NCBI RefSeq assembly: GCF_007860175.1
Contig: NZ_SJPX01000001.1
Coordinates: 682,001-746,000, forward strand
Direction of reading: 5' to 3'
DNA: 64,000 nt
Source: Rubripirellula reticaptiva
GTDB taxonomy: Bacteria > Planctomycetota > Planctomycetia > Pirellulales > Pirellulaceae
Shown here: piece by piece, positions 17,701-62,087 of the stretch
Position numbering within the stretch: position 1 is the first letter of the stretch
Layout of the letters: every line of letters starts with the position of its first letter
Position numbers and translations under genes: made by a program
Notes under the pieces: model-generated
Databases searched by the model: none
Told to the model about the DNA's origin: nothing
Seen by the model: only the letters and a program-made list of their open reading frames with translations

Positions 17701-17749
17701 GTTGTTCAACTACCCTTTGTTCTCGAAATTTATTTCGATCGCGTTAACT

Positions 17750-19129: not shown

Positions 19130-19245
19130 TGTTTTTCCCGATCGTCTTACGAATAAATATCTCGCCGCGCCGTTCCCGAACATCTGCAACCGTGACACAT
19201 TGGCATGCAGCTTTATAAACAACCTGCGGCATCCTGTTGCGACTT

Positions 19246-20831: not shown

Positions 20832-22139
20832 CTAGATCGTGAAAAGCTCGTCGATAGCTCCAGTCGAGTCACCAAACGAACCTGCCAAAATCCCACATCC
20901 ACGCAGTGTGCTTAGCCACAGGTTGCACAATGGCGTCTTGGGATCGTCCATCACCAAGTGACGACCATGCTTGAACCCAGCACCCCCGCCGGTCACCAAC
21001 GTTGGACAGTTCTTCAGCGTGTGAACGCTGCTTAGGTTCGTCCCCATCGTAATCGCTGCGTGATCATACAAACTGGACCCATCCGCCTCTTTTGTCGACT
21101 TTAACTTGTCGATGAACTCAGCCAGCAATTTTGCATGCGCCGTATCACGCGATTCCGAGACCGTCCGGCGTTCGCCTTCGGAATAGTGACTCATGCTGTG
21201 TGCGCTCATCGACGCACCAAGACTAGCGATCATCGAATCGACTGGCATGCGATACGTAAAGACACGAGTTGCGTCGACTTGCATCGCTGCAACCATGATG
21301 TCGTACATCATGCGAATTTCTTCAACGCCCTCAAGTGATTCCTTCGGCTGGCTGACGGAATCTCGAGGCACCTTCTTTTCAACGCCCAACCACGTCTCTT
21401 CTTTGGCCAACCGAACTTCGATTTCACGCACCGACTGAAAGTACTCTTCCAATTTTTCGTTGTCGGCACGATTGATTTTTCGGTTCACCGACCTTGCATC
21501 CGACAACACGGTATCAAGCACACTGCGTTGTTCCTTCAATCGTTGTTGCTGTACCGCTAGCGGCGTATTGTCTTGCGAGAACAGGCGATGGAACGCCGCA
21601 ACGGGCGTATCGAGTCCTGCAACGGGCTTCCCCGATCGATTCCACGCCAATGACGATCCCGGCCCGTGACCGTCGTTCGAGGCACCTTTGGCGGCAAGCT
21701 GGATCGATGTGAAACGAGTCTGTTCGCCCAACGTTTCAGCAGCAACTTGATCGACCGAAATCGTGTTATGAAAACTCTGCCCCGGAATCGCGTACCGGTT
21801 CGCACCCGTCAACCAGAAAGTGCTTCCCGAGTGACCGTCAGCGGAATACTGGTGCATCAGATTCTGAATGATCGTGATGTCCTTCTGATGCTTTGCCAAC
21901 GGTTTAAGAATTTCTGGCAACTCATAGTTTTCGCCAACGGTATTCACATCGGGATACCAACGGTCGGCTGTCACTCCAAATCCCATCCCCAAGAACACCA
22001 TTCGCTTTGGTGGCCCACTGTCGATCGGCGCGGCCGACGCGAACCGCCGGAATCCAAACGACTCGAGCGCGGGCAACGCGATCAGTGCACTTGTGCTGCG
22101 AAGAAAACCACGACGTTGAATTTGTTTGCGTTTGCTCAT
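20832..22139 (-). CDS. DUF1552 protein with twin-arginine signal
   Basis: From the ATG at 22139 the protein opens with a Tat-type signal (RRGFLRSTSALIALPALE, Arg pair at 9-10), then the DUF1552 body: KRMVFLGMGFGVTADRWYP near residue 35, IIQNLMHQ, HSGSTFWLTG, SIQLAAKG, and late motifs DHAAITMGTNLSS and LVTGGGAGFKHGRHL. DUF1552 is a secreted family common in planctomycetes and myxobacteria, of unknown function. From memory it is related to the alkaline phosphatase/sulfatase-like DUF1501 group. Tat export implies folding, perhaps with a metal, before translocation. It lies 55 bases after the cytochrome gene, and this pairing of a DUF1592-type cytochrome with DUF1552 is a recurrent planctomycete arrangement. 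The frame is open 32 codons upstream, but that would overlap the previous gene. Confidence 0.92.
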   Translation of the reverse strand: MSKRKQIQRRGFLRSTSALIALPALESFGFRRFASAAPIDSGPPKRMVFLGMGFGVTADRWYPDVNTVGENYELPEILKPLAKHQKDITIIQNLMHQYSADGHSGSTFWLTGANRYAIPGQSFHNTISVDQVAAETLGEQTRFTSIQLAAKGASNDGHGPGSSLAWNRSGKPVAGLDTPVAAFHRLFSQDNTPLAVQQQRLKEQRSVLDTVLSDARSVNRKINRADNEKLEEYFQSVREIEVRLAKEETWLGVEKKVPRDSVSQPKESLEGVEEIRMMYDIMVAAMQVDATRVFTYRMPVDSMIASLGASMSAHSMSHYSEGERRTVSESRDTAHAKLLAEFIDKLKSTKEADGSSLYDHAAITMGTNLSSVHTLKNCPTLVTGGGAGFKHGRHLVMDDPKTPLCNLWLSTLRGCGILAGSFGDSTGAIDELFTI

Positions 22140-22194
22140 TACCGTCTCGTCTAAGTAAGGAAGGGATGGTCGTTTGAAGTGAACTGGTAACGAA

Positions 22195-24744: not shown

Positions 24745-24853
24745 TTCGATTTCTTGGTTGGTTTCTATTCTTAACCGGCGAACAGCGGACGAGCATCTTG
24801 CCACGATTCACAAACACGCGAACGATGGCGGGAAATGACACCTCGCCGACAAC

Positions 24854-26920: not shown

Positions 26921-28405
26921 CTAGGCCAAAATCCCCTTGATCACGTTGCCGTGCACATTGGTCAAACGCCGCTCTAACCCGTTGTGATAATACGTTAGCT
27001 GTTCGTGGTTGAGTCCCATCAAGTGCAAGAGCGTCGCGTTGAAGTCATAGACACTCACTTCATCAACGGCCGCCTTGAATCCGAACTCATCGCTCTCGCC
27101 ATAACTGAACCCCTTCTTGACGCCCGCTCCGGCCATGAAGCACGTGAACGCATCGGGATTGTGATCACGACCGGTACCGTTAGCTTGCAAGAACGGCATG
27201 CGACCGAACTCGGTGCACCAAACGACGAGCGTGTGTTCCAACATCCCACGCTGCTTCAGGTCGGCGATCAACGCCGCCGTCGGCTGGTCCATGATCTCGG
27301 CCTGCATTCCGTGCGTCTTTAATATGTCGCTATGCGAATCCCAATTCGTGATGCCGTTGCCACCGGCCGGGTCACTGCCATTGAATAGCTGCACGACTCG
27401 AACACCCTTTTCGAGCAAACGCCGCGCCAGGATACAGTTGTTCGCATACGCCTTCTTCAGATCCGTGCCGGTATCGGTTCCATAAGCATCGTGAACGTGT
27501 TTCGGCTCGTTCGCGATATCCATCACATCCGGTACCGAGGTCTGCATTCGGCCAGCCAGTTCGTAACTGGCAATTCGCCCCGCCAAATCCGCATCGCCTG
27601 GAAATTGTTGCAAGTGTTGAGCGTTCAACTTTTGTAGTAGCGCCACGCTTGCCCGGTCCGACGCAGCGTCGTACCCAGCAGGTCGACTCAAATTCGACGG
27701 CGGCGCCGAAGCCGTAAAGTCGGTTCCTTGGAAAGCAGCAGGTAAAAATCCACTGCCGAAATTATTCTTACCGCTACGCGCCATTCCACGAGGATCGTTG
27801 ATCGCCACGAACGCTGGCAATTCACTGGTCTCGCATCCCAAAGCGTACGTTACCCAAGAACCAAATGACGGAAAGCCTTCCATCGTGAACCCGGTGTTGA
27901 AGAAGTTCTCGCCTTGCGGATGCGCACTGGTTTGGGTCGAAAGCGAATGAACAAAACAAAAGTCATCGACCATGTTGGCAAGATTCGGCAACAAGTCCGA
28001 AACCATCTTGCCACTTTCCCCGCGCGGTTTGAAATCCCAAAACGGCTTGGCGATGTTGCCTGTTGGACCTTCGAAAGTAATCTCGGGCATGCCTGGCGGT
28101 TTCTGACCATCCAACTTGTAAAGGTCCGGTTTGTAATCAAACGTATCCAGATGGCTAACTGCACCGGGCAAATAAATCACCAACACTTGCTTGGCCGGCA
28201 TTTCGAAATGTGGCGGCCGCGCAGCGTACGGATTCTTGTCATCAATGTCGGGCCGAATCGGCCCCAACTGATCTGCGCCAAGCAACTTGTCCTGGGCCAG
28301 CAATTGCGACAACGCAATGGCTCCCATCGACATACCGGATTGACCGAGGAACGCGCGGCGATCAAGTAAGGATCGCCCGATCGATGATAGTTTTTCTGGG
28401 TTCAT
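26921..28405 (-). CDS. DUF1501 protein with twin-arginine-like signal
   Basis: A 494-residue exported protein. The signal LDRRAFLGQSGMSMGAIAL (Arg pair at 16-17) is Tat-like. DUF1501 motifs follow: KQVLVIYLPGAVSHLDTFDYKP near residue 72, SGKMVSDLLPN, SLSTQTSAHPQGE, GVRVVQLFNGSDPAGG followed by NWDSH, and VVWCTEFGRMPF with GRDHNPDAFTCFMAG. DUF1501 belongs, to my knowledge, to the alkaline-phosphatase/sulfatase superfamily and keeps Asp/His metal-type ligands, but its substrate is unknown. The ATG overlaps the stop of the cytochrome gene by 4 bases (28402-28405), so the heme protein and this Tat protein are made in step, the standard pairing in this phylum. It is the last gene of module B. Confidence 0.93.
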   Translation of the reverse strand: MNPEKLSSIGRSLLDRRAFLGQSGMSMGAIALSQLLAQDKLLGADQLGPIRPDIDDKNPYAARPPHFEMPAKQVLVIYLPGAVSHLDTFDYKPDLYKLDGQKPPGMPEITFEGPTGNIAKPFWDFKPRGESGKMVSDLLPNLANMVDDFCFVHSLSTQTSAHPQGENFFNTGFTMEGFPSFGSWVTYALGCETSELPAFVAINDPRGMARSGKNNFGSGFLPAAFQGTDFTASAPPSNLSRPAGYDAASDRASVALLQKLNAQHLQQFPGDADLAGRIASYELAGRMQTSVPDVMDIANEPKHVHDAYGTDTGTDLKKAYANNCILARRLLEKGVRVVQLFNGSDPAGGNGITNWDSHSDILKTHGMQAEIMDQPTAALIADLKQRGMLEHTLVVWCTEFGRMPFLQANGTGRDHNPDAFTCFMAGAGVKKGFSYGESDEFGFKAAVDEVSVYDFNATLLHLMGLNHEQLTYYHNGLERRLTNVHGNVIKGILA

Positions 28406-31149
28406 GGCAGGAATGCAAATTCGTTAGTGTTGATGAGTGTACGACACAAAAGCGCCAGGCTTTGTTGCTTTGCGAAGTCAATCGCCTCTTCGGCTTCCTC
28501 TTCAGTTGGTTTTCGAGCGAGCAACAACTCGAAACAACGAGTGACCTGCGCCGAGGTATCATTGCCAGCCTCGCGTTTGGCACGCGCAGCCAAGAAAGCA
28601 GCTTGCTCGACCACAAAATCGCTATTCATCAGATTCAGCGCCTGCAACGGAGTGGTCGAGACTGGACGCTTGGCCTTAATCTGTCCACAATCCGGAAAAT
28701 CGAATGCCGTAAACATGTGATCATCGACCCGGCGCATCCGTTCTTGGTACAGCATTCTGCGCCACGTTTGGTCGCTATGGTTGTCAACGACTTCCCACTG
28801 GGCATAGCGTGCCTTGACGTTGTGAATTCGATAGCTCGGTCCGCCGATTGATTCGTCCAATCGTCCAGTGGCCTGCAAAATGGAATCACGAATCACTTCA
28901 GCTTCGACACGGCGAGGCGGGTATCGCCACAGCAATTGCGCGGACGCATCTTTCGACAGACCGTCTTTTTCCGGTTCGCTCGACTGACGAAACGCCCTCG
29001 ATAAAACCATCATTCGGATCATGCGTTTGACCGACCACGGCGTCTGCTGCGACGGATCAATGAACTGATTGGCCAGCCAATCCAACAACTCGGGGTGAGT
29101 TGGTGGGGCGCCGGCTTTTCCAAAATCACTTGGCGTGGAAACAATCCCAGACCCGAATGTGTGATGCCAGATACGGTTGACCATGACCCGAGGTGTTAGT
29201 GGATTGCTAGGATCCACCAACCAATCCGCTAGAGCCGCCCGACGCTGGGGCCCTGGTGCGTCGGGCATCAAATCCAGCGTACCGCCAAGTTGTTTGGGAC
29301 CGGCCGCATCGACCTTCCCGTGGGGCGTCTCGGGACTTCCCCGCAACAATACGAAGGTTTCCACCGGTTCGATAAACGTTGCCAAGAAAGCGGGCTGCGG
29401 TCCTTGCACCAACAGTTCGCTGATCACGTCCTGCATCTTGCTTTGTAAATCTTGCCGTTTTTCCTTTCCGGATTTTCTTTTCTGCATCTCAGCCGTCGAT
29501 GCAAACGCTTTCCAATTCCCCTCGTCGTCCCGCAACTCGATCTTGAATTCGCCGTAGTTCGCTTTGTTCATTCCATTCAAATAGTCTGTCTCTAAAAAGT
29601 CCTCGCGATTGGTGCTGATTCGAATCGTACTGACCGTTACCGGCTCTGGAAACTCAAACTCGACCCACGGACGTTCCTTTGACTTCGGAGGCGATTTCGC
29701 AATCCACCCCTTTGTCCCGAAAACACCGTCCGTCAACTTCGCCGCAGGCTTCCCATCGACTAACGTCGCAGGATTGCCTCGCACAACGGTACCGAACGAT
29801 CGTTGAGCGACGTTTTGACCGCCACCTTTGGCTTCGATGATTTCCAACTCGTCCGCGTTCACCCAACCGTTATCAAACGAAACACGAATCTCTCGAGTCG
29901 TTTTGGGTTGGAAGTGAATTTCTTGGTATCCCTGCCAATCTTCTTTCCATGCCCAGCCGGGAGCCCGCATCTGACCGCGAAGCTCGTTCAATTCGCGTCG
30001 CAACTCTTGTTCGCGAACCACCCGAGGATGCTCCGGTGAAAGCTCTGGATACCGGCTGCCAAATTCGACGTCTTGGAATGCTGCCGACATCGCGTAATAG
30101 TCTTGAATCGAAATCGGATCGAACTTGTGGTTGTGGCAACGCGCGCAACCGATCGTGACTCCCATCACCGACGCACCAACCGTTTGCAAGACTTCGTCGA
30201 TCCGATCAGCACGGGCTTGGCGGATCGCCGTTTCCTCGGCCCCAACCGTAGCCGATGGAACATGCGGCCCAGCAACCATGAACCCCGTCGCGTCGCCTGC
30301 GCCCATCACGTCGCCAGCTAATTGCTCGCGAATGAACAAATTGTATGGCTTGTCCTGGTTGAACGAACGCACGACATAATCGCGATACATCCACGCGTTC
30401 TTTCGGTACAAATTGCTTTCACTGCCGTTGGTTTCAGCCCAACGAATCACGTCGAGCCAATGCTGGGCCCAACGTTCACCAAAGTGATCTGACGCAAGCA
30501 GTTCATCGACCAAAGCGTCATAGGCTGCGTCAGCATCAACCGCAAAGGCGGCCACAAAATCATCACTGCGCTTCGGAGTCGGCGCGATGCCGGTTAACAC
30601 AATCGATGCCCGACGAATTAGCGAACGCGGATCCGCAGCACGATTGAAGGTCAGACCTGCTTCGCCAAGCTTGCTTTCCAAGAATTGGTCAATGCTATTG
30701 TGATCAAACGCGGTTTGCATCGGCAAAAACGACCAGTGGTCGACTTCGTCTTCGGCGACCTGATCCATCTGGCCGGGCCAGTCAGCGCCTTGTTTGATCC
30801 ACCGCGTCAGTATCTCAATTTGTTCGGCAGGAATCTTGTCCTCATCCGGCGGCATCGCCGTTTCTTCGTCAACGTGATTGACCACATCGATCAAGTAACT
30901 TTTCTCGGGATGGCTCGGAACCAACGCCGCCAAACCAGAATCACCACCACGAAGCATCCGGCCGCGCATGTCGAGTCGCAAACCAGACTCTTGTTCATCT
31001 TCTCCGTGACAGTGCAAACAATGCTCTTCCAGAATCGGCAACACATCATCGTTAAAGTCGATCTCGCTCGCCTGCAGGCCACCCGAGAAACCGAACGCAA
31101 CGAAACTGCACGCAACAAAAAAAAGAGCGAGGGTCGAAATTCGTATCAT
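28402..31149 (-). CDS. Planctomycete cytochrome protein with PSCyt1, DUF1549, discoidin-like and DUF1553 domains
   Basis: A 915-residue Sec-exported protein (signal MIRISTLALFFVACSFVAFG). The PSCyt1 domain has heme motif CLHCH at 44-48 and the usual TAMPPDEDKIP block near 98. DUF1549 runs about 145-360 and contains a second heme motif CARCH at 335-339 followed by NHKFDPISIQDYYAM. Between the domains, at about 410-560, is a beta-rich insert (VWVEFEFPEP-like: RPWVEFEFPEPVTVSTIRIS) similar to a discoidin/F5-8C module. DUF1553 follows (RRAALADWLVDPSNPLTPR, MVNRIWHHTFG). Both heme sites are intact, so a periplasmic electron-transfer or redox role is likely. The reaction is unknown. It is coupled by a 4-base overlap to DUF1501. 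Confidence 0.92.
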   Translation of the reverse strand: MIRISTLALFFVACSFVAFGFSGGLQASEIDFNDDVLPILEEHCLHCHGEDEQESGLRLDMRGRMLRGGDSGLAALVPSHPEKSYLIDVVNHVDEETAMPPDEDKIPAEQIEILTRWIKQGADWPGQMDQVAEDEVDHWSFLPMQTAFDHNSIDQFLESKLGEAGLTFNRAADPRSLIRRASIVLTGIAPTPKRSDDFVAAFAVDADAAYDALVDELLASDHFGERWAQHWLDVIRWAETNGSESNLYRKNAWMYRDYVVRSFNQDKPYNLFIREQLAGDVMGAGDATGFMVAGPHVPSATVGAEETAIRQARADRIDEVLQTVGASVMGVTIGCARCHNHKFDPISIQDYYAMSAAFQDVEFGSRYPELSPEHPRVVREQELRRELNELRGQMRAPGWAWKEDWQGYQEIHFQPKTTREIRVSFDNGWVNADELEIIEAKGGGQNVAQRSFGTVVRGNPATLVDGKPAAKLTDGVFGTKGWIAKSPPKSKERPWVEFEFPEPVTVSTIRISTNREDFLETDYLNGMNKANYGEFKIELRDDEGNWKAFASTAEMQKRKSGKEKRQDLQSKMQDVISELLVQGPQPAFLATFIEPVETFVLLRGSPETPHGKVDAAGPKQLGGTLDLMPDAPGPQRRAALADWLVDPSNPLTPRVMVNRIWHHTFGSGIVSTPSDFGKAGAPPTHPELLDWLANQFIDPSQQTPWSVKRMIRMMVLSRAFRQSSEPEKDGLSKDASAQLLWRYPPRRVEAEVIRDSILQATGRLDESIGGPSYRIHNVKARYAQWEVVDNHSDQTWRRMLYQERMRRVDDHMFTAFDFPDCGQIKAKRPVSTTPLQALNLMNSDFVVEQAAFLAARAKREAGNDTSAQVTRCFELLLARKPTEEEAEEAIDFAKQQSLALLCRTLINTNEFAFLP

Positions 31150-31215: not shown

Positions 31216-32817
31216 CTAGCGACTTACGAACCCGGCCTGGAGCTGGTCGGTCAATTCGCGAACGAGTTCCTGATTCTCGCTGGCAATGTTCTTCGTTTCA
31301 TTCGGATCGTTTTGGTGATCAAACAGTTCCGTGAACACCGGTTTCGCACTCGAATCACGGTGATCACGCCACTGCACTAACCGATAACGATCGGTCCGCA
31401 TCGTGTAACCCATCAAGTGTTCCTCGAACAGTTCACGGTCCCACTTATCTCCTTGCTGGTCGATGATCCGAGACTCAACTTCTTTGATCAACGGACCGAA
31501 CCAAGTCTCACGCATCCCTTGCGACAACGGATTCGCCGCCCATTCCCGCAGTGCTGGATTTGGATACTGACTAAACGCTGCTTTCTTCCAGGGCTGCGCC
31601 GGATCATCTAGTAGCGGCACGAAACTGTCACCTTCAAGATGCTCGGGTACCGATAAACCAGCCAGCTCGCATAGCGTTGGATAGATGTCGACTAATTCAA
31701 CAAGTGCATCCGTCGTTACGCCGCGCGACTTCATATTCGGCGTCCAGATCATCAAAGGCACGCGAGTCGCGATTTCATAGTTCGTTGCCTTTCCCCACAC
31801 ACCCATGTCGCCAAGATGCCAACCATGGTCGCCCCAAAGCACGATGATTGTGTTGTCACGAACGTCAGCATTCTCCAACGCCTCAATCAACTTTCCAATC
31901 TGCGCATCGACGTAACTAACGCTCGCCAGGTATGCGTGTTTCAACGTTCGAGACAGATCCGGATCGATCGGTCCCGTCTTTGGAATGCCTGATCGAGTCC
32001 GCAGTTCGAATGAAGCGTGCAGCCCCATCGCAGCACCATGGTCCGGTGCATCCACCTCGGTCGCCATTGGAATTGAATCTGCGTCGTAAAGATCCCAGTA
32101 CTTCGACGGTGCGCACCAATTCAAGTGCGGCAACTTGTAACCCATCCCAAGAAAGAATGGCTTACCATCTACCTGAACCATCTCTTTCATGGTCTCGATA
32201 GCCAACTGCGTGTTGTATCCATCCAGGTAAGCAGTATCCGGAACATTGGCTTTCTCGTATGCCGGCCCCGCTGCCAAACCAAGTCGCGCCGCCTCGCCAT
32301 ACTTGGACAACATTTTTCTCATGTTGTCGGCTTTCAACTTGTTATTTTCAGGAAGAGCGTATGCCCCAATTGGCTTCTTGATTCCCTTGATGAACCGCAC
32401 CGGATCACGACTCCACGACCGTCCTTCGTCGGTGTCGCCTTGGTGAAAAATTTTGCCACAATACGCCGCCTCGTACCCAGCGGCTACAAAATGTTCAGGT
32501 AGCGTCAAGATCTCTGGCTGCAACTCACGCAGCGAAACGTAGTTGTGGAACAACCCGGTCGTTTCAGGCCTTGCTCCCGTCATCAGGCTCGCACGCGATG
32601 GACGACAAATTGCTTGCTGACAATAGGCTCGATTGAACAGCAACCCTTCACTCGCCAAAGCGTCCAAATTCGGCGTCACGGCGATCGGCGATCCATAGCA
32701 ACCCAATTCAGGTCTCAGATCGTCAACCGCAATGAACAGAACGTTCGGCTTATCGGCGGCATGGACGATGCCTGCGCAGATAAAAGTGACGACGAATAGC
32801 ATAGTGAAAATTTTCAT
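31216..32817 (-). CDS. Sulfatase, iduronate-2-sulfatase-like, exported
   Basis: A 533-residue sulfatase with clean signal peptide MKIFTMLFVVTFICAGIVHA. The metal site VDDLRPELGCYGS (31-43) and formylglycine motif CRPSR (71-75) followed by MTGARPETTGL are typical of the iduronate-2-sulfatase subgroup, as are YCGKIFHQG, FLGMGYKLPHLNWCAP and LWGDHGWHLGDMG. In the family this subgroup removes 2-O-sulfate from uronic acids in glycosaminoglycan-like chains. The activity here is inferred by likeness only. It sits between the FecR-LamG gene and the cytochrome gene of module B, 66 bases before the latter. Confidence 0.93.
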   Translation of the reverse strand: MKIFTMLFVVTFICAGIVHAADKPNVLFIAVDDLRPELGCYGSPIAVTPNLDALASEGLLFNRAYCQQAICRPSRASLMTGARPETTGLFHNYVSLRELQPEILTLPEHFVAAGYEAAYCGKIFHQGDTDEGRSWSRDPVRFIKGIKKPIGAYALPENNKLKADNMRKMLSKYGEAARLGLAAGPAYEKANVPDTAYLDGYNTQLAIETMKEMVQVDGKPFFLGMGYKLPHLNWCAPSKYWDLYDADSIPMATEVDAPDHGAAMGLHASFELRTRSGIPKTGPIDPDLSRTLKHAYLASVSYVDAQIGKLIEALENADVRDNTIIVLWGDHGWHLGDMGVWGKATNYEIATRVPLMIWTPNMKSRGVTTDALVELVDIYPTLCELAGLSVPEHLEGDSFVPLLDDPAQPWKKAAFSQYPNPALREWAANPLSQGMRETWFGPLIKEVESRIIDQQGDKWDRELFEEHLMGYTMRTDRYRLVQWRDHRDSSAKPVFTELFDHQNDPNETKNIASENQELVRELTDQLQAGFVSR

Positions 32818-54138: not shown

Positions 54139-54435
54139 GGCTCTAGATAAAACGAACTGGTTATTCTGATCAAACAGTGACCGCCGACCGAAGTGCACTT
54201 GCCAAGTTCCTGGATCGGGCAACAAGTCTCGCTGTCTCGCAGCGACATTCTAGACTTGCCCACGTAAGTTCTCGATGGGGAACAAATCCAACAGTTAAGA
54301 AGCATTCGAACAGCAAACTCAGGGCGTAGCTCAAATGCAATTGCCAATCGCGACAGGTTCCGTTCATTGGTATTGTGGGTATGTTTTTGTGCTGAGTGAT
54401 TTTAAACTGATCCCAATTGTGAATTGCGCCTCCTT

Positions 54436-55311
54436 ATGACCATGCAACTGATCGTGACCCATCCGGGCGGAGCCCACAAAGACGATTTCCTTGCCTGCAG
54501 TCTGCTGGCACACTTGCATGGGGTCCCAATCCAGCGGCGCGAGCCAACGGACGAAGACTTAGCCAATCCATCAATCTGCGTCGTCGATGTCGGTGGCGCT
54601 CACGATCCTGAACGGAACAACTTTGATCATCACCAGTTCCCTCGCGATGCTCCGCCACTTTGTGCCTTATCGCTTGTGCTGCAAAGCATGGGACTTTACG
54701 AGGACGCATTGTCCTTTTGTGCTTGGCTTCGTCCGGCAGAATGGCTCGATACGTTAGGCCCAAACCAAGCCGCCAAGTTGATGGGAATTCCTCGCACGGC
54801 ATTGGGAGCACTGAATTCGCCCGTCGACATCACTTTGCTTAACCGATTCGCTGGCAGCACCGAGCTCAATCCCGACAATCCCATTTACCAAGTCATGTGC
54901 ATGGTGGGCGAAGACATTGTCAACTACTTGAAAACGTTGCGGCAGCGATTGGACTACCTGAAAGAGCACGGTCAGTACTGGACGATTGAAACGGATGGCG
55001 AACCGATCGGAGCATTGTTCCTGGAAAAAAGTGATGCGATCTCAGGTGATCCGTCCTTTGGGATCCACGCGTTCATCGAGAGCGAAGGAAAGGAGAATGA
55101 GATCCAAGCGTTGGTCTATCCTGATCGGCGTGGCAGCGGGTACGGATTGACTCGGTACAACGACAGCCAGCGTTTGAATTTTTCGCAAATCGAATCACAC
55201 GATGAAGTTCGTTTTGCCCACAAACATGGCTTCGTCGCAAAAGTCTCAACAACGGATCCAGCAAAGCTGAGAGAACTACTGAAACTCGCCGTTGCCAAAA
55301 TCAGTAGCTGA
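54436..55311 (+). CDS. MYG1-family metal-dependent nuclease-like protein
   Basis: A 291-residue protein of the MYG1/UPF0160 family (DHH-type fold). Metal-site motifs are VTHPGGAHKDDFLACSLL at the N-terminus and VDVGGAHDPERNNFDHHQF near residue 45. The C-terminal half carries FGIHAFIESEGKENEIQALV and AHKHGFVAKVS. Eukaryotic MYG1 is a 3'-5' RNA exonuclease of nucleus and mitochondria. Bacterial members are little studied. The frame begins at a TTG at 54424, but the ATG at 54436 or 54442 is more likely; the next few residues begin the conserved strand. Slightly shorter than eukaryotic members (about 340), mainly in the middle. Confidence 0.87.
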   Translation: MTMQLIVTHPGGAHKDDFLACSLLAHLHGVPIQRREPTDEDLANPSICVVDVGGAHDPERNNFDHHQFPRDAPPLCALSLVLQSMGLYEDALSFCAWLRPAEWLDTLGPNQAAKLMGIPRTALGALNSPVDITLLNRFAGSTELNPDNPIYQVMCMVGEDIVNYLKTLRQRLDYLKEHGQYWTIETDGEPIGALFLEKSDAISGDPSFGIHAFIESEGKENEIQALVYPDRRGSGYGLTRYNDSQRLNFSQIESHDEVRFAHKHGFVAKVSTTDPAKLRELLKLAVAKISS

Positions 55312-55571
55312 ACCGGCAACGTGACACGAGAGCGTCTGGGCTCGGCAAACGCCAGGAAAAATCATCCTCCACGTCCGATCCGCCGCAAACATCCTGAAAG
55401 ACGCGATGAGCGCTTAGATTCGCGATTGATAACGGACAAGGCAGAATTTTAATTGCCAACCCTACCGGTTTTCCGTTCAATCCGTTTGGAAATTCATTCC
55501 GAACCGTGGCGACGTGGATTCCATACTGCGACAATGGGCTGCTTCTGAACTTGAACATTGGGTGACGTGTG

Positions 55572-56507
55572 ATGCGATTCTTTTGGTTGTCGTCGATCGT
55601 TTTTTGCTTGACGCTGGCCGCAGTTGCCGACGACTTAATCTTTTCGGGGCCTCAGGTAGGCGAGCCAGTCGTCCCGTTCGAAGCCAGGATCGTGTTCGGC
55701 GAGGACGCTGGCAATCACGTCAACGTGATCAAGGGCATCGATGACGGTCCAGTCATGTTGGTCTTCGTTCAACAGGTCACCCGGCCCTCAATCGCGCTGA
55801 CTCGCTTGCTTGGCAACTACGCCAGCACGAAGAAGGACGAAGGTCTTCAATGCCGACTGATCTTTCTGACCTCGGATCCGACGGAAACGGAGGCCTGGCT
55901 TCGCCGTGCTCGTGGAGCGTTGCCCGAAGGTGTCTCACCGATGATCTCGATGGATGGAATCGAAGGTCCGGGTGCCTATGGTCTCCATCGAAAGATGACG
56001 CTGACGATCCTGATTGCGAATCAAGGGAGAGTGGTCGCGAACTTTCCCCTAGTTCAACCGAGTATCCAAGCCGATGCAGTCAAAATCGGCCAAGCGATCG
56101 AAAAAGTACTCGGTCGCAAACAGACGCCTAGCTTAGCCGAGATGGGATTCGAAGAACGCCAAATGGGAATGCGAGGACGTGCCGATTCGTCTGAACAAGA
56201 AGGCATCTATCGCCAAATGATGTCGCCGGTCATCCAGAAGACGGCGACACCTGAGGACGTCCTTGCAGCAGCCGAGCAGGTGGAACAGTTTGCGGCTAAG
56301 AATCCCTGGTTCAAGCAACGTGTTCACAAGGCCACCAATCTGATCGTCGATGGCGGCAAACTTTCCAACTACGGGACCTTATCGGCACAGAACTATCTCA
56401 AGAAATGGGCCGACGAGTTTGCACCTGACAATGACGAAGACAGCGATGAGAACGGCGGCAAACCAGTGCCAGCGAGCGATGACTCAAAAGACGCCGAATC
56501 TTCATGA
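55572..56507 (+). CDS. Secreted thioredoxin-like protein
   Basis: A 311-residue exported protein (signal MRFFWLSSIVFCLTLAAVAD). The core of about residues 30-185 has a thioredoxin-like order of strands (PVMLVFVQQVTRPSIALTRL, RLIFLTSDPTETEAWLRRA, MTLTILIANQGRVVANFPLV), but the CxxC pair is absent: the position after the first strand reads VTRPS. It is therefore not a disulfide enzyme. The C-terminal part is helical. Its stop overlaps the next ATG by 4 bases, so it is translationally coupled to the cytochrome protein and heads the operon of four genes. A GTG at 55569 directly precedes the ATG. Confidence 0.75.
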   Translation: MRFFWLSSIVFCLTLAAVADDLIFSGPQVGEPVVPFEARIVFGEDAGNHVNVIKGIDDGPVMLVFVQQVTRPSIALTRLLGNYASTKKDEGLQCRLIFLTSDPTETEAWLRRARGALPEGVSPMISMDGIEGPGAYGLHRKMTLTILIANQGRVVANFPLVQPSIQADAVKIGQAIEKVLGRKQTPSLAEMGFEERQMGMRGRADSSEQEGIYRQMMSPVIQKTATPEDVLAAAEQVEQFAAKNPWFKQRVHKATNLIVDGGKLSNYGTLSAQNYLKKWADEFAPDNDEDSDENGGKPVPASDDSKDAESS

Positions 56508-58735
56508 AACATTCCTCGCTCGATCGCTGTGCTGTGCTTCAGTTCGATGCATTGGCTCGTGCCTTGTTCTCTAGCGCTGCATTAATTAGCACGTTGATCA
56601 TTGCGATGTCCAACGTCAATGCAGAGGCTGCGGAGATCGATTTCGATACCGAAATTGTGCCGTTGCTGTCGAAAGCGGGCTGCAACGCCGCGAGCTGTCA
56701 TGGTGGTGCGGCGGGCCAAGCCGGGTTTCGCCTTTCGCTGTTCGGCGGTGACCCCGAGTTCGACTATCGGACGATCGTTCGCGAACTTTCTGGCCGCCGA
56801 GCGAACCTTGCACGCCCCGCCGATAGCCTGATCCTGTCAAAACCGACTGCTCAATTGGAACATGGCGGCGGGCAAGTTCTGGAACCCGATGGAGAACCAG
56901 CAGAGACGATCGAACATTGGATCGCCACCGGTGCTCGTCGAAGACAACTTCGGAATCTGGAGCATTTGCGAGTGACTCCAACGGACTTTGTCGCTGACTC
57001 TGTGCCGGCGACCGTTTCAATCCAAGTGACGGCGTTCTTTGACGATGGTCTTCAGCGAGACGTAACTGCCCAGGCAGTTTACGTTAGCCAAAACGAGTCC
57101 GCCGTGACCGTCGACGATTTTGGCATCGCGACAGTTACTGCCCCCGGCCGTCACTGGGCAACGGTACAGTTCGCAGGCCAAGTGGCGACGGTTTCATTCA
57201 CCACGCCAATGGGCTCCGAAAAATTCACGCTGCCCAGCTCTGCGACAAACAATTGGATTGACGAACAGATCAACACAACCCTTCGTCAGTTGCGAATTGC
57301 CCCCGCAAACCCCACAAGTGATTCCGCGTTCCTGCGAAGGTTGTCGCTTGATCTGACGGGTCGATTGCCTTCTCCCACTCAGATTGAACGCTTTGTTGAT
57401 GACGAGGCAGACGATGATGATTGGCCGGCCAAACGTTCACGCATGATCGACGACCTTCTAGATTCAGAATCGTTCGTCGACTACTGGACGCATCGCTTGG
57501 CCATCCAATTGCGGCTTCGCAAACCCGGCACCGATGAAGTCGCGGCCGACGTGTTCTACGACTGGCTAAGGGACCGCGTTGGCGACGACACCGGCTGGGA
57601 CGAGATTGCAAAGTCGTTGATCCTTGCCGAAGGGGACACGCACCAAAACGGGGCAGCGACCGTCCACCGTTTCTTCGCAACTGCACGCGAGGAAGCGGAG
57701 TACATCAGCGAAGTATTGATGGGGGTCCGGCTGAGATGTGCGAATTGCCACAACCATCCGCTGGACCAATGGACTCAGGACGACTACCACGGGCTGGCTG
57801 CTATCTTTGCCGGGTTCGAACGAAACCAGCATGTGCGATTTACCGGGCGTGGAACCGTCATTCACCCACGCACCGGATCCGACGCGCTGCCTCGCATCCC
57901 CGGTGGTCATTTCCTGCCACCGAACGCCGATAACCGCCACGAATTTTCCCGGTGGCTGACCGACAAAGACAATTCGTACTTTGCTAGGGCCATGGTGGGT
58001 CGCGTTTGGCAATCGTTGATGGGACGTGGCCTGATTCATCCGGTCGATGACCTTCGCGCGACCAACCCCGCTTCGCACCCCGGACTGCTGGATCAACTGA
58101 CACGTTTCTTTGCCGAAAATGATTTCAAGCTCCGTCCGCTGATTCGACTGATCTGTAACTCCGCCGCTTACCAACGATCCTCGGCGGCACCTGCGACAGG
58201 TCCGACCGACGACACAATGCAGTTCTACGCCCGCGCAATCGTCAAACCGCTAGACGCTGAAGTTCTGGCCGATGCGATCAGTGACGTGACCGGCGTCCCA
58301 GAGAACTTTAACGGCGTGAACCGGGCTATCAACGTGGTCGACCGTGCGTCGACGTCCGACAGCTTGCAGTTTCTTGGACTGTGTCTGCCTGGCGAAAACT
58401 GTTCCACGCCCAGCAGCTCGGGTCGCGGGATCGCATCGAAACTGCATCTGATGAACGGAGATTTGCTGAACGCCAAAATCATCGACAACGATGGTCGGCT
58501 GCAGAAGATGATTAGCAAGAAAATGGCAACCAGCGAGATTGTTCGTGAGCTCTATGTTCACGCATTGTGTCGCGTTCCGTCGGACCGCGAGCTGACTCAG
58601 TGGATCGAACGCATCGATGCCAGCGCGAATGCAAATACACAAGAACAAGAAGCGGAAGCGGAACAGAGGCATCAGCGGAGCGAAGACTTTTTTTGGGCGC
58701 TGCTGAATTGCCATGAATTCACTCACAGCCATTAG
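56504..58735 (+). CDS. Cytochrome-like protein with Ig-like, DUF1549 and DUF1553 domains
   Basis: A 743-residue exported protein. The N-terminal domain has the heme-like motif CNAASCH (C60, C65, H66) with the GGAAGQAGFRLSLFGGDPEF context typical of the CX4CH subgroup of planctomycete cytochromes. A bacterial Ig-like (BIG2) domain follows at about 160-235 (VTPTDFVADSVPATVSIQVT). DUF1549 runs about 245-430, with a second heme motif CANCH at 412-416 in NHPLDQWTQDDYHGL. DUF1553 is at the end (RVWQSLMGRGLIHPVDDLRA), shorter than in the module B protein. It is coupled to the thioredoxin-like gene by a 4-base overlap and lies 7 bases before the DUF1501 gene. Confidence 0.9.
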   Translation: MKHSSLDRCAVLQFDALARALFSSAALISTLIIAMSNVNAEAAEIDFDTEIVPLLSKAGCNAASCHGGAAGQAGFRLSLFGGDPEFDYRTIVRELSGRRANLARPADSLILSKPTAQLEHGGGQVLEPDGEPAETIEHWIATGARRRQLRNLEHLRVTPTDFVADSVPATVSIQVTAFFDDGLQRDVTAQAVYVSQNESAVTVDDFGIATVTAPGRHWATVQFAGQVATVSFTTPMGSEKFTLPSSATNNWIDEQINTTLRQLRIAPANPTSDSAFLRRLSLDLTGRLPSPTQIERFVDDEADDDDWPAKRSRMIDDLLDSESFVDYWTHRLAIQLRLRKPGTDEVAADVFYDWLRDRVGDDTGWDEIAKSLILAEGDTHQNGAATVHRFFATAREEAEYISEVLMGVRLRCANCHNHPLDQWTQDDYHGLAAIFAGFERNQHVRFTGRGTVIHPRTGSDALPRIPGGHFLPPNADNRHEFSRWLTDKDNSYFARAMVGRVWQSLMGRGLIHPVDDLRATNPASHPGLLDQLTRFFAENDFKLRPLIRLICNSAAYQRSSAAPATGPTDDTMQFYARAIVKPLDAEVLADAISDVTGVPENFNGVNRAINVVDRASTSDSLQFLGLCLPGENCSTPSSSGRGIASKLHLMNGDLLNAKIIDNDGRLQKMISKKMATSEIVRELYVHALCRVPSDRELTQWIERIDASANANTQEQEAEAEQRHQRSEDFFWALLNCHEFTHSH

Positions 58736-58742
58736 GTCAACC

Positions 58743-60071
58743 ATGACACCACACGGCACATCGCTTGGACGTCGAGACTTCCTTCGCGTTGGCGGGATTC
58801 CTGCCCTGGGATTGGGAATGCACGCTTTGCCAACCCGATCCGCGGCGGGGGCGGAACTGGCGAAGGCACCGGCCAAGGCCAAATCTTGCATTTTGATCTG
58901 GCTCGACGGCGGACCAAGCCACCTGGAATCGTTCGACCCGAAACCAAACTCGCCACGGGAAGTCCGCGGGCCGTTTGGCGTTATCGGTACGTCAGTGCCC
59001 GGCATTCACGTAAGCGAACTCTTGCCACGAACGGCTGCGACGATGCAGCATTCGACGATCATTCGATCGATGACGTCGCCATTAGGCGAGCACAATTTTG
59101 GTACGCATTATCTGTTGACCGGATACAAACCAACACCCGCACTGAACTATCCAGCCATGGGTTCGGTCATTTCGCATCTCGGTTCCCGCGAAACCTCGAT
59201 TCCGTCGCATGTCGCGGTACCCGACCTACGAGTTGGCGGCGGCAAGTTCCTGGCCCAGGGCTATCTTCCCGCCAATGTTGCTCCGTTCGAAGTTAGCGGT
59301 GATCCAGCAAACAAAGATTTTCGCGTTCGCGATCTCGATCCGTTCCCGGGTATCGTGGACGAACGGATTGACCGCCGAGCTGCCTATTTGCGGGCCCTCA
59401 ATCGCATCGACGAAAACGTGCAATCGAGCTCACCAGACGACCCCGCCTTCGAACAAGCCTATCGGCTGATGACGTCAACTTCCGGCAAGCGTGCCTTTGA
59501 CCTGTTGGCAGAGTCCTCGGAAACTCGCGGCCGTTACGGTGCGAAGTCGATTGGACAGTGTTGTTTGCTGGCCCGTCGATTGGTCGAAGCCGGCGTTCCG
59601 TTTGTGACCGTCAACAATCGTGGCTGGGACACGCACAACGATTTGGTCACACGGCTGAAGGAGGGATTCACTGGCGCGAAACAACCCGTAGGGCTGATTC
59701 CATCACTCGACATGGCCTATTCGTCGCTAATCACCGACTTACATGACCGCGGACTACTCGGCGAAACGTTGGTCGTCGTGATGGGCGAATTCGGACGCAC
59801 TCCCAAACTCAATACGCTCGGCGGTCGAGACCACTGGCCACGTGTGTTCAGCGTGATGATGGCCGGCGGCGGCATCGGGGGCGGGCAAGTGATCGGGTCC
59901 AGCGACGACATGGGCGAAAGTCCTCACGACCGCCCCGTGACGCCAGCCGACCTAGCCGCAACCATCTATCAATTGCTGGGGATCGATCCCACGACCATCT
60001 TGAACACGGCAGACGGCCGCCCTGTCAAAGTGAGCTTGCATGGCACTCCGATCAGCGAGTTGGTTGGATGA
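58743..60071 (+). CDS. DUF1501 protein with twin-arginine signal
   Basis: A 442-residue protein with Tat signal (LGRRDFLRVGGIPALGLGM, Arg pair at 10-11). DUF1501 motifs are SCILIWLDGGPSHLESFDPK, VSELLPRTAATMQH, SMTSPLGEHNFGTHYLLTG, VTVNNRGWDTHND, VVVMGEFGRTPK and GGRDHWPRVFSVMMAGGG. The WDTHND and GRDHWP sites are the Asp/His pairs expected for metal binding in the alkaline-phosphatase-like fold. It starts 7 bases after the cytochrome stop; an ATG at 58713 would overlap that gene and gives no better leader. Its stop overlaps the WD40 gene start by 4 bases. This is the third cytochrome-Tat pair of the window. Confidence 0.93.
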   Translation: MTPHGTSLGRRDFLRVGGIPALGLGMHALPTRSAAGAELAKAPAKAKSCILIWLDGGPSHLESFDPKPNSPREVRGPFGVIGTSVPGIHVSELLPRTAATMQHSTIIRSMTSPLGEHNFGTHYLLTGYKPTPALNYPAMGSVISHLGSRETSIPSHVAVPDLRVGGGKFLAQGYLPANVAPFEVSGDPANKDFRVRDLDPFPGIVDERIDRRAAYLRALNRIDENVQSSSPDDPAFEQAYRLMTSTSGKRAFDLLAESSETRGRYGAKSIGQCCLLARRLVEAGVPFVTVNNRGWDTHNDLVTRLKEGFTGAKQPVGLIPSLDMAYSSLITDLHDRGLLGETLVVVMGEFGRTPKLNTLGGRDHWPRVFSVMMAGGGIGGGQVIGSSDDMGESPHDRPVTPADLAATIYQLLGIDPTTILNTADGRPVKVSLHGTPISELVG

Positions 60072-61222
60072 ATCCTTGGCATCCTCGACGAAAATTCCAG
60101 TGTCGTTTGCTGATCGCAATCACAGTGGCGATTACCGTATCGCTTTCGCCATGCCTGGATTCGGTTGCAGAGCAGCCCGAAAACGAACGCGCTGCCGCAT
60201 CAGTGACAGCGCCGCCCGTGACAGCGTTAGCGATGGCCCCGTCCGGTGACAGGATTGTTTCCGGATCACAAGCCGGAATCTCGATTTACAAATGGCCATC
60301 AATGGCGATTGTTGAAAGTCACGATTTCGAAATCGGGCAAATCCAAAGCTTGCGATTTTCACCAGACGCAACACGATTGCTGATCGCCGGTGGCAAACCG
60401 AGCGAGGTTGGACAGTGGCAAATCGCGACGTGGCCGGACCTTTCGATCGTCGCATCAAGCTCGGAGCACGACGATGTGATTCACTCTGCGATCTGGCTTT
60501 CGGATGATCGATTCGTCACAGGGGCCGCAGACACCGAAGTGATCCAGTGGCAAATGCAGTCGCATGCGGACGCCAGCAGTCGAGCCACAATTGTCAGGCG
60601 CCTGACCGGCCATTCTCGCCGAGTGCTCAGCGTCGAATCAATCGACCGTGGTCGGCTGTTGATTTCAGCCGGTGTTGACCAGAGCCTGCGAGTGTGGAGC
60701 AACGACGCGGATTTGGTGACGCCGCTGCGAGTCCTGGACAACCACACCGGCATCGTGCGTGACCTCGCCAGACGCCCCGGTGATCACCCGATCGCATACC
60801 TGGCATCAGCCAGCGCGGACAAGACCGTTCGAATCTGGCAACCGTCGATCGGCCGACTTGTACGATTCGCCCGGTTGCCGGTCGAACCACTTTGCATCGC
60901 TTGGTCCAGCGACGGCAATCAGATTGGCGTCGGCTGCATCGACGGCAAGCTACGGATCGTCAACGCTAACACCGTCACAGTGGAACAAACGCTGCCAGCG
61001 GTCAACGGCTGGGCCTACTCCATCCTGGCCACCCAAGACGGCAGCTACATCATCGGCGGCACCGACGGAAAACTAGCCCACGTCAAACCCATTCCCCCCA
61101 CCAACCCGCTAATGCAAAACCATCAATCCACCCCAGCGACGCAAGGCGGACGTCGTGCCGTCATTCAGCCGGGTCTTTCGTTGGCATGTCCCAGCGGATT
61201 TTGTAGAGACGCTGATCACTGA
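60068..61222 (+). CDS. Secreted WD40 repeat protein
   Basis: A 384-residue exported protein (signal LLIAITVAITVSLSPCLDSV). WD40 repeats can be followed through the body: VTALAMAPSGDRIVSGSQAG, IQSLRFSPDATRLLIAGGKP, HSAIWLSDDRFVTGAADTEV, VLSVESIDRGRLLISAGVDQ, LASASADKTVRIWQPSIG and IAWSSDGNQIGVGCIDGK, giving one seven-bladed propeller. It is probably a protein-binding scaffold for the coupled cytochrome and DUF1501 proteins, an inference from the operon. The last 21 codons overlap the end of the convergent gene and look unlike a propeller, so the tail may be a chance extension. Confidence 0.88.
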   Translation: MNPWHPRRKFQCRLLIAITVAITVSLSPCLDSVAEQPENERAAASVTAPPVTALAMAPSGDRIVSGSQAGISIYKWPSMAIVESHDFEIGQIQSLRFSPDATRLLIAGGKPSEVGQWQIATWPDLSIVASSSEHDDVIHSAIWLSDDRFVTGAADTEVIQWQMQSHADASSRATIVRRLTGHSRRVLSVESIDRGRLLISAGVDQSLRVWSNDADLVTPLRVLDNHTGIVRDLARRPGDHPIAYLASASADKTVRIWQPSIGRLVRFARLPVEPLCIAWSSDGNQIGVGCIDGKLRIVNANTVTVEQTLPAVNGWAYSILATQDGSYIIGGTDGKLAHVKPIPPTNPLMQNHQSTPATQGGRRAVIQPGLSLACPSGFCRDADH

Positions 61223-62087
61223 TTTGAATTGGCTTCGCGTCGGTGAATCGAATCGTGTCGCTCCACCAATCCTCTGCCGTAGCTTGGTGAAAGACGATTC
61301 GATTCGACGTGGCGTGACGATCGACCGACTTGACCTTTTCTTGATCTCCAAAACCTTCGGCGACAAGGAAGTTGAGTTCGTCACAATCGAAAGTCAACAC
61401 TTGCGTGTCTGTGGTCACGTAGAGATGTTTAGCATCGTGTTGCGGCGAAAGATCGTGTCCGCCGTTACTAGGTAAGGACGTCCGTGAACGTACCGACCAT
61501 CGTACAGCCGGCTTTGCGTTGGCATCGGCAACCAACGCCAGCAACTCCTTCTCACCGAGCGCCCAGAGGCAGTCGCGTTGGGCGTCCCAAACCAATCCGT
61601 GGGCTCCCAACAACACAAGTGACTGCACGACCATCGCAGGCTGTTGAATTTCGTCGCGATCGAAGAACTGAACTTGATCACCACCGAAACTCGAAGCAAC
61701 CGCAACCTGACGACCGGGCAACAAGCAAGCACTGTGCGCGTTGCGTGATTCGGCTAAGAACTTGCATGCTTTCGAGGATCGATCTATCAGTGCGACCGCG
61801 CCACTCGACGACGTGATCAACAGCAAGTCGCCTTCACACGGCTTGCAGTCGTCCGTCGAACGAAACCGTTTTCTAATGTCTTCTGGAATGGATGGCGATT
61901 GTTTCGAATGCCAACTCCATTTCTTGACCTTCGGGTCTTCGATCGCGATGACAAACACCTCATCGCCGCCACAACAAATCAGATCATGCGTGTCCGCAAA
62001 CGCTGTCGTTGAAAGCGTGGCGATAGCGAGGAAGCAAGCTAGAAAGCAGATCATAAAAGTCGCACAGGTATCTCTAGCACGCTTCAT
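61161..62087 (-). CDS. Secreted DUF6528-like protein
   Basis: A 308-residue exported protein (signal FMICFLACFLAIATLSTTAFA). After cleavage it begins DLICCGGDEVFVIAIEDPKV, which I recall as the opening of DUF6528, a predicted beta-propeller family. Repeated strand-turn units follow (LLLITSSSGAVALIDRSSKA, VAVASSFGGDQVQFFDRDEI, GLVWDAQRDCLWALGEKELL, HDAKHLYVTTDTQVLTFDCD). Function unknown. It converges on the WD40 gene with a 62-base overlap of the two 3' ends. Confidence 0.75.
   Translation of the reverse strand: MKRARDTCATFMICFLACFLAIATLSTTAFADTHDLICCGGDEVFVIAIEDPKVKKWSWHSKQSPSIPEDIRKRFRSTDDCKPCEGDLLLITSSSGAVALIDRSSKACKFLAESRNAHSACLLPGRQVAVASSFGGDQVQFFDRDEIQQPAMVVQSLVLLGAHGLVWDAQRDCLWALGEKELLALVADANAKPAVRWSVRSRTSLPSNGGHDLSPQHDAKHLYVTTDTQVLTFDCDELNFLVAEGFGDQEKVKSVDRHATSNRIVFHQATAEDWWSDTIRFTDAKPIQISDQRLYKIRWDMPTKDPAE

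Follow-up and report, generated by a model that had tools for sequence, protein, structure and literature searches.

Four adjacent genes of Rubripirellula reticaptiva form a conserved operon that joins a cytochrome with an unusual CX4CH haem site (CYT) to a DUF1501 protein, a WD40 propeller and a cysteine-free protein of predicted thioredoxin fold (TRX). The gene order recurs beyond chance, and the four-gene set is less ordinary than the PSCyt2/DUF1501 pair within it; the pair itself is ordinary, and both such pairs and WD40 neighbours are already in the literature. The best explanation of the whole, which we regard as plausible but just short of probable, is that the products make up an exported four-protein unit in which a DUF1501 metalloenzyme core sits on a PSD1/DUF1800-type partner to which haem has been added. 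Planctomycete genomes are full of both families (this one has 46 PSCyt2 and 56 DUF1501 matches), and no demonstrated function for either was found in the literature. The conserved four-gene version, with its odd haem site and its Cys-less partner, is a small, testable unit.

Layout and recurrence of the four genes

The window is the whole 64,000-nucleotide stretch of R. reticaptiva DNA analysed here. It contains the operon as four intact and tightly coupled open reading frames, all on the + strand. The first, which starts at GTG 55569 or ATG 55572 and ends at 56507, encodes TRX, with a signal-like N-terminus. CYT (56504–58735), also with a signal-like N-terminus, comprises a CX4CH domain, an Ig-like domain, DUF1549 (PSCyt2) and DUF1553 (PSD1), and carries two haem c motifs. 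It is followed by the DUF1501 protein (58713–60071), with the twin-arginine motif RRDFLRVG, and by a WD40 protein (60068–61222) whose N-terminus is signal-like and which lacks a haem motif. The overlaps of 4 bases between genes 1 and 2 and genes 3 and 4, described in an earlier sequence-only reading, are present in these coordinates. The 7-base spacing that it gave for genes 2 and 3 requires a DUF1501 start at 58743; from the ATG at 58713, which is preferred, the two genes overlap by 23 bases. The same overlap is found in the three closest relatives, two of which lack the second Met, and the DUF1501 gene probably does overlap the CYT gene rather than starting 7 bases after it.

Scans for promoters (one site, against 2.2 in shuffled sequences) and terminators (7 against 7.1) gave no signal, and NCBIfam at E≤0.001 supplied no name for any of the four proteins. 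No carbohydrate enzyme or sulfatase adjoins the locus at 55569–61222. A defence system was considered and rejected: PADLOC matched none of the proteins but WD40 (HEAT-ARM model, 4e-14), and nothing else pointed in that direction.

The complete set, in order, is present in 33 of 80 scanned loci, these being the best 80 of 158. Within the same 80, the cytochrome gene comes next after TRX in 53 of the 73 loci that have a TRX reading frame and 700 bases beyond it, 23 of the 25 rows of the seed alignment having been drawn from cytochrome-linked loci. Single-protein searches of 60 relatives place TRX upstream of 32 of the 39 cytochrome matches above 500 bits. Both TRX (>60 bits) and the clade cytochrome occur in 27 of the 60 genomes, neither in 28 and just one of the two in 5 (Fisher p 3e-11, uncorrected for phylogeny). 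With every reading frame taken from its earliest available start codon, the exact 4-base overlap is seen at 20 of 53 TRX-CYT and 15 of 33 DUF1501-WD40 junctions. The distances of the four proteins within the clade are correlated (r 0.73–0.91). Accessory genes do differ between copies of the pair, as the sequence-only reading had it, but its "exchangeable scaffolds" are too loose a description here, given that TRX is usually kept within the clade and that the distances correlate.

The cytochrome and its two haem motifs

CYT matches both DUF1549 (125.3 bits, cut-off 29.8; residues 252–438, 57257–57817) and DUF1553 (126.9 bits, cut-off 28.5; residues 477–699, 57932–58600) in one protein. The two attachment motifs noticed earlier are both there: CNAASCH at residues 60–66 (56681–56701) and CANCH at residues 412–416 (57737–57751), the latter within DUF1549. 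The attachment motifs, the first in the form CX4CH, are invariant in the 38 aligned clade sequences, CYT of the window included, and so is His120 (56861–56863) of an HxG motif.

The N-terminal domain is not matched by the PSCyt1 Pfam model PF07635 at E≤10, nor is CYT among the 61 PSCyt1 matches in the genome. Profile comparison, however, relates this domain to PSCyt1 (hhalign probability 96.9, E 1.6e-10, against 0.0016–0.31 for seven other slices). CX4CH and HxG are found in 38 of 38 clade sequences, whereas all 30 PSCyt1 domains compared have CxxCH and MPP. The domain is therefore related to PSCyt1, with CX4CH in place of CxxCH and the invariant HxG in place of the distal Met-Pro-Pro. His120 is a candidate distal ligand, and the first haem is probably His-ligated; with HxG standing where PSCyt1 has its distal Met, it is probably bis-His and of lower potential. 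In the predicted model the haem-1 loop (64–72) and the HxG loop (114–122) both have pLDDT below 50, and the solved-structure matches for CYT, by sequence and in the leading rows of the structure search, fall only on the Ig-like domain. No literature on CX4CH haem sites in cytochrome c maturation was found.

The operon thus has the domains and adjacency of the planctomycete PSCyt2-PSD1 and DUF1501 pair, all far above Pfam cut-offs, but differs from the usual pair, in which the N-terminal haem domain is of the CxxCH/MPP kind; here it is CX4CH/HxG and its PSCyt1 character escapes Pfam.

The DUF1501 protein and its partners

The third gene is a clear DUF1501 match of Tat type (334.5 bits, cut-off 27), and the twin-arginine motif recurs in 31 of 31 aligned sequences. 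Residues D75, H127, W305-D306-x-H308, E359, R372 and H374 are conserved in 16 of 16 sequences, K77 in 15 and D373 in 14. This set of Asp, His and Glu residues looks like a metal site, although D65, the first Asp of the putative site, is not conserved family-wide. The C-terminal part has a weak similarity to sulfatases, of the alkaline phosphatase/sulfatase superfamily (hhalign E 8.3e-4, probability 24%, 89 columns, four-row template). No convincing solved relative was found by sequence (best E 0.089 and 0.34); for none of the operon's proteins is a missing match evidence of a new fold.

In the R. reticaptiva genome DUF1501 is found near all 46 PSCyt2 matches, and 53 of the 56 DUF1501 matches have a partner no more than 5.5 kb away: PSCyt2 for 51 of them, with strand shared in 46 cases, and DUF1800 for the other 2. 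The pair is therefore nearly constant, as had been proposed. The window holds only two copies of PSCyt2-PSD1/DUF1501, at 26921–31149 and in this operon, and not three. A further locus at 20832–24804, which encodes PSCyt1/PSD2-5/PSCyt3 with DUF1552, was apparently counted as a copy; it likewise sets a haem-motif protein beside a partner of no assigned function, but both Pfam families differ. One joined PSCyt2-DUF1501 reading frame in the genome looks like a deletion product, and we do not take it as proof of interaction. Decayed DUF1501 fragments are also present.

Those fragments, together with the 46 copies of PSCyt2, are what might be expected if the operon were a decaying or neutral duplicate within a large paralogous family. 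Such a reading is contradicted by the intact frames, the invariant motifs and the order kept across many planctomycete genomes, and we consider it highly improbable.

Several comparisons bear on which part of the pair is its core. The PSD1 half aligns with DUF1800 at E 3.3e-4 (54 columns, probability 38.5%), against 0.07–0.23 for four controls, and the DUF1800 profile matches a PSCyt2-PSD1 reading frame of another genome above cut-off (E 4.5e-6); for CYT of the window, there is no match to the DUF1800 model PF08811 at E≤10. Unlike CYT, DUF1800 proteins have no haem motif (0 of 11), yet they too are paired with DUF1501, both in the two instances in this genome and, according to the available text of PMC5122149, in Proteobacteria; the same text has DUF1501-DUF1800 in bacterial chitin synthase operons. 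With PSD1 related to a haem-free family that is itself a DUF1501 partner, haem is probably an addition, and the constant part looks like DUF1501 with a PSD1/DUF1800 scaffold. This link defines a shared core and predicts haem-independent DUF1501 chemistry.

The sequence-only reading had instead taken the pair, as a periplasmic redox unit, for the constant core. Worked out, this would be an electron-transfer unit that feeds or drains a redox enzyme, with DUF1501 a redox metalloprotein. The invariance of both haem motifs in all 38 sequences and the presence of PSCyt2 near 51 of the 56 DUF1501 matches are in its favour. The haem-free pairing just described runs counter to it, as do the conserved DUF1501 residues, which are of the kind found in hydrolytic metal sites; we consider it doubtful.

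In the preferred explanation, the core would be DUF1501, by its looks a hydrolase or transferase that depends on metal. A partner of PSD1/DUF1800 type would hold it, having gained two c-type haems in planctomycetes, the first of them carried in this clade by the PSCyt1-derived CX4CH domain. The most likely substrate of the unit would be a polymer of the cell surface or periplasm, whole or in fragments, and the haems would give or take electrons. The proposal of a polymer substrate draws on the chitin synthase operons and on the available text of PMC5615132, in which PSCyt genes lie beside sulfatases and carbohydrate-binding modules are present in some of them.

The thioredoxin-fold and WD40 proteins

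The first gene had been read as thioredoxin-like without CxxC, and this is borne out by the sequence, by a confident predicted model (pLDDT 88.4) and by structure matches, even though Pfam gives no thioredoxin-like match at E 10 and no solved relative is convincing by sequence (best E 0.024 and 0.094). The best structural match is DsbE (Z 16.1, rmsd 2.2, 140 aligned), followed by ResA (Z 14.0), with peroxiredoxins scoring almost equal to ResA. Z is at least 8 for 822 of the 1000 chains compared, which places the predicted model in the thioredoxin-fold superfamily, with a fold of TlpA/ResA/peroxiredoxin type. The mature protein begins FSGPQxGE and has a helical C-terminal region. A conserved TRP-type segment lies between the strand at 60–66 and the helix at 71–86; from the fold topology, it would occupy the position of the cysteines in redox relatives. 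TRX has the predicted fold of the ResA, DsbE, CcmG and peroxiredoxin proteins but differs in its cysteines: none of the mature domains of 76 relatives has the CxxC active site of the ResA/CcmG thiol-disulfide oxidoreductases and only 10 have any Cys, so that standard thiol chemistry would not be possible for this Cys-less protein.

In a phylum-wide sample of 199 genomes, no more than 15 have a match to the TRX profile at E≤1e-15, the source genome included, and R. reticaptiva has a single match; six sister CX4CH proteins of the same genome have no adjoining TRX gene. In 20 of the 73 scanned loci TRX has no cytochrome nearby, which points to a second use or to action in trans; in some of these it lies beside a VWA gene. 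The passages of the literature covered here name no thioredoxin-fold partner of the pair, and the word "thioredoxin" is not used in the main text of PMC5615132.

We propose that TRX is dedicated to the cytochrome as a partner in its structure or assembly. A more specific possibility is that it is a maturation factor, a Cys-less holdase like ResA/CcmG that presents the CX4CH apocytochrome to the synthetase, comparable to SirG/CcmI for SirA. DsbE/ResA-type thiol-disulfide proteins are its best structural matches, the end of its gene overlaps the start of the CX4CH gene by 4 bases in 20 of 53 loci, and available text describes the reduction of apocytochrome c by ResA (PMC3884852) and dedicated chaperones for atypical haem sites (PMC6976685). 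Against this stand the sister CX4CH proteins without an adjoining TRX, the single TRX match in the genome, the loci with VWA and no cytochrome, and peroxiredoxin matches nearly equal to ResA, and we think the idea rather unlikely. It is more speculative still, and improbable as a whole, that a Cys-less ResA-like apocytochrome chaperone helps to build a low-potential, His-ligated CX4CH haem, and that the two-haem protein then drives or gates a DUF1501 metalloenzyme seated on a WD40 platform. The operon would in that case be a planctomycete branch of DUF1501/DUF1800 machinery that modifies an exported polymer by redox means.

WD40 and Ig-like modules are binding folds. With the Cys-less thioredoxin module they might bind partners in a signalling or attachment complex, where haem would only sense oxygen or redox state. 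Two loci (L086 and L087) have a TRX copy after a sigma/anti-sigma-like pair, so labelled from sequence with no profile hit, and sigma-70 factors and DUF1501 are frequent neighbours of planctomycete WD40 genes in the available text of PMC5587647. The invariant DUF1501 residues, however, resemble a catalytic or metal site more closely than a surface for binding, and such a complex seems to us unlikely. In the four-protein unit that we prefer, the haem-less propeller would serve as a docking platform.

The WD40 assignment of the fourth gene is confirmed by Pfam, and none of 33 WD40 partners in the clade has a haem motif. Beside sister CX4CH copies are found WD40-PSCyt1 proteins (L006, L007, L009 and L010; fused in L008), so that there too a propeller adjoins a CX4CH cytochrome and DUF1501; these proteins, and with them most WD40 partners of sister copies, have CxxCH, whereas those of the clade of this operon do not.

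Operon layout and conservation of the four-gene set

The PSCyt2-PSD1/DUF1501 pair is already known, and what is new here is its four-gene version, with a CX4CH/HxG haem domain and a Cys-less thioredoxin-fold partner. Four co-directional genes fill positions 55569-61222; Pfam assigns DUF1549 (PSCyt2) and DUF1553 (PSD1) to gene 2 (the cytochrome, CYT), DUF1501 to gene 3 (DUF) and WD40 to gene 4 (WD), and matches no domain in gene 1 (the thioredoxin-fold protein, TRX). The 4-base overlaps of genes 1/2 and 3/4 in the sequence-only reading are present in the ORF coordinates. Its 7 bases between genes 2 and 3 are replaced by a probable 23-base overlap, with ATG 58713 better supported than 58743 as the DUF start because the overlap is kept in the three closest relatives, two of which lack the second Met. 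Nor is this a third cytochrome-DUF1501 operon, as had been proposed: the window has two PSCyt2-PSD1/DUF1501 pairs, at 26921-31149 and 55569-61222, and the locus at 20832-24804 holds a parallel but different pair, PSCyt1/PSD2-5/PSCyt3 with DUF1552. Sulfatase genes (16105-20709, 31216-32817) adjoin the two other loci and not this operon, as first described. In the 20832-24804 pair (minus strand) the two genes overlap, and DUF1552 has 20 matches genome-wide. The upstream neighbour of the operon (54424-55311, plus strand) matches the MYG1 exonuclease family over residues 10-71 only, and a convergent DUF6528 gene (61161-62087, minus strand) shares ∼60 bases with the 3′ end of the WD40 gene.

The set TRX-CYT-DUF-WD is conserved. 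Among the listed matches of the window CYT in 60 related genomes, 39 exceed 500 bits, followed by a gap to 440 or below; TRX matches in the same orientation lie no more than 600 bases upstream of 32 of the 39, and 26 are followed by a WD40 match (E≤1e-40). The seven without an upstream TRX include a second copy in genome G011 that begins 170 bases from a contig end, one in G023 with TRX just downstream of the cytochrome instead, one in G026 with a different ORF upstream, 0.7 kb before the contig end, and one in G032 whose upstream gene reads as a sulfatase. The same upstream check found no TRX beside six lower-scoring cytochromes; among the other lower-scoring matches listed, with shared contigs checked by eye, TRX lies beside one, a partial match in G015 that shares CX4CH and CANCH with the clade (the close relatives of the window CYT). 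Counted by genome and uncorrected for relatedness, TRX (>60 bits) and the clade cytochrome occur together in 27 of the 60, TRX alone in 3, the cytochrome alone in 2 (in one of these, G008, a weaker TRX match adjoins the cytochrome) and neither in 28. The window's genome has a single TRX match.

The TRX alignment, searched against named genomes, identified 158 relatives. Among the best 80 of these 158 loci, 33 read TRX-CYT-DUF-WD, 7 lack only the WD40 gene, 1 has TRX-CYT only and in 12 the retrieved sequence stops shortly beyond CYT or DUF; 20 have no CYT within 700 bases, 3 are cut right after TRX and in 4 no TRX ORF was called. The resulting frequency of CYT next to TRX (53/73) may be an overestimate, because 23 of the 25 seed alignment rows came from cytochrome-linked loci, and these counts are not independent of the 60-genome counts, since no fewer than 12 of the 80 loci lie on contigs that also belong to that set. 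In 34 operons, the 33 and that of the window, the distances of the four proteins are correlated (r 0.73-0.91, a level reached in 0/2000 permutations); joint inheritance would produce this, but so would shared species history. The TRX family is thinly spread over the phylum, with matches at E≤1e-15 in 15 of a sample of 199 genomes.

Several fetched loci depart from this arrangement. At L086:2688-7128 and L087:6520-10720, TRX copies that have no adjacent cytochrome follow genes resembling sigma and anti-sigma factors and precede a 565-566-residue gene (with a VWA domain in L086). A second TRX-like gene follows the WD40 gene of the operon in L094 and L154. A cysteine-bearing AhpC/TSA peroxiredoxin (L058:7071-7676, minus strand) lies ∼0.7 kb upstream of a TRX-less CYT-DUF-WD set, and at L063:1073-2467 the TRX position is taken by a gene that reads, from its sequence, as a sulfatase. 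After the operon in L059 (7170-8904) come a SASA carbohydrate esterase and a creatininase-family gene, with like-sized ORFs there in L055.

The thioredoxin-fold protein and the haem domains

A sequence profile search found no convincing relative of TRX among solved structures. The structural model (pLDDT 88.4, built from 41 sequences) matched mainly thiol-disulfide oxidoreductases and peroxiredoxins, which make up nearly all of the 50 Foldseek matches shown (best E 3e-6); a second aligner gave Z scores of 16.1 for DsbE, 14.0 for ResA and about 13-14 for peroxiredoxins. SGPQ, P60, F65, R71, D102, GPG, YGL, R140 and N157 are invariant or nearly so. No cysteine is conserved; CxxC occurs in none of 76 mature domains and any cysteine in only 10. 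The description of gene 1 as thioredoxin-like but lacking CxxC thus holds, and TRX, as modelled, is a thioredoxin fold that would be incapable of standard dithiol chemistry. Ten further operons have a longer form (469-579 residues); in the eight aligned, whose identity to the first of the set is 64-73%, the thioredoxin-like part lies nearer the C-terminus and likewise has no CxxC.

Both haem motifs ascribed to the cytochrome proved invariant: all 38 aligned CYT sequences retain CX4CH, H120, CANCH, H418 and H429, and also cysteines 627 and 633, which could perhaps form a disulfide. Residues 44-146 matched an alignment of 30 PSCyt1 domains, taken from 61 matches in the window's genome, at E 1.6e-10, against 0.0016 to 0.31 for seven other CYT slices, the lowest being that with the other haem motif. 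CxxCH and MPP are both present in all 30 PSCyt1 domains. In the clade CYT and in six other CX4CH proteins (from loci L006-L011, the sister copies fetched from the window's genome) H-x-G replaces MPP, and His is therefore predicted to be the second haem ligand of the CX4CH domain in place of Met. In the haem-free AlphaFold model both loops, 64-72 and 114-122, have pLDDT <50. An Ig-like domain sits between this haem domain and DUF1549.

DUF1501 and its partners

Sixteen DUF1501 sequences from the window's genome share G66, D75, H127, W305, D306, H308, E359, F360, G361, R362, R372 and H374, with K77 in 15 and D373 in 14; D65 is not conserved among them. In a weak alignment with the window's sulfatases, E359 falls near the sulfatase C-terminal Asp-Asn-Gly. 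We regard DUF1501, with moderate confidence, as a putative metalloenzyme and a relative of the alkaline phosphatase group, a reading in line with its Pfam clan assignment.

In the window's genome the pair is nothing unusual, with 46 PSCyt2 matches and 56 DUF1501 matches (including fragments and one below the cut-off). The nearest partner of the 56 is a same-strand PSCyt2 in 46, an opposite-strand PSCyt2 in 5 (three being, by position, pieces of one decayed gene), DUF1800 in 2 and neither in 3; these last include a stop-containing fragment and a match scoring under the cut-off. The PSD and PSCyt domains were reportedly named by Studholme et al. in 2004. R. baltica has 41 PSD1 and 41 PSCyt2 (PMC2754498), PSCyt2 and PSCyt3 genes usually adjoin one of two unknown-gene families and have Big_2 and WD40 among their associated domains (PMC5615132), and in planctomycetes WD40 genes often have DUF1501 as a neighbour (PMC5587647). 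One ORF (L043:3516-4991, minus strand) runs from the N-terminal region of a PSCyt1-PSCyt2 protein into the end of a DUF1501 and looks like a deletion fusion.

The sequence-only reading took the pair to be the constant part of the three loci and a periplasmic redox unit. The pairing is indeed near-constant, all 46 PSCyt2 matches having a DUF1501 within 5.5 kb, but a redox unit as the constant core, although possible, is not favoured, since DUF1501 is also paired with DUF1800, and none of 11 DUF1800 proteins has a haem motif. In the window's genome two DUF1800 genes adjoin the two lowest-scoring near-full-length DUF1501 matches, and both families match in the same 2 of 14 control genomes. In Proteobacteria, DUF1501, carrying a Tat motif, and DUF1800 are reported to share operons with chitin synthases (PMC5122149). 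The DUF1800 profile matches (positions 224-418, E 4.5e-6, above the cut-off) a PSCyt2-PSD1 ORF in G037 that is itself a match of the window CYT, and also further ORFs at similar profile positions. For the clade's PSD1 half, the alignment with DUF1800 gave E 3.3e-4, over 54 columns and at a probability of 38.5%, compared with 0.07-0.23 for four unrelated control alignments. More than any other evidence, this link argues for haem as an addition to the DUF1501 partnership, not as its core.

The WD40 partner and a proposed working

Haem motifs are absent from all 33 WD40 partners in complete operons; in another set of relatives' loci, one WD40 gene, that of L053, has a CxxCH near its end. The sister copies L006, L007, L009 and L010 have WD40 partners with CxxCH, L008 has a fused WD40 and L011 none. 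We read this as loss of a haem-bearing WD40 in the clade, or failure to acquire one, with TRX as the added part.

We suggest that DUF1501 would fold in the cytoplasm, probably with metal, leave by the Tat route and then join the PSD1 scaffold, which would also be exported. The two haems could act as electron donors or acceptors, or sense redox state; the WD40 protein may hold or dock parts and TRX may help build or hold the cytochrome. From context, the substrate would most likely be a polymer or polymer fragments. At L010:10420-14775 (minus strand), three tandem DUF1501 genes neighbour a single CX4CH cytochrome and a WD40 gene with a haem motif.
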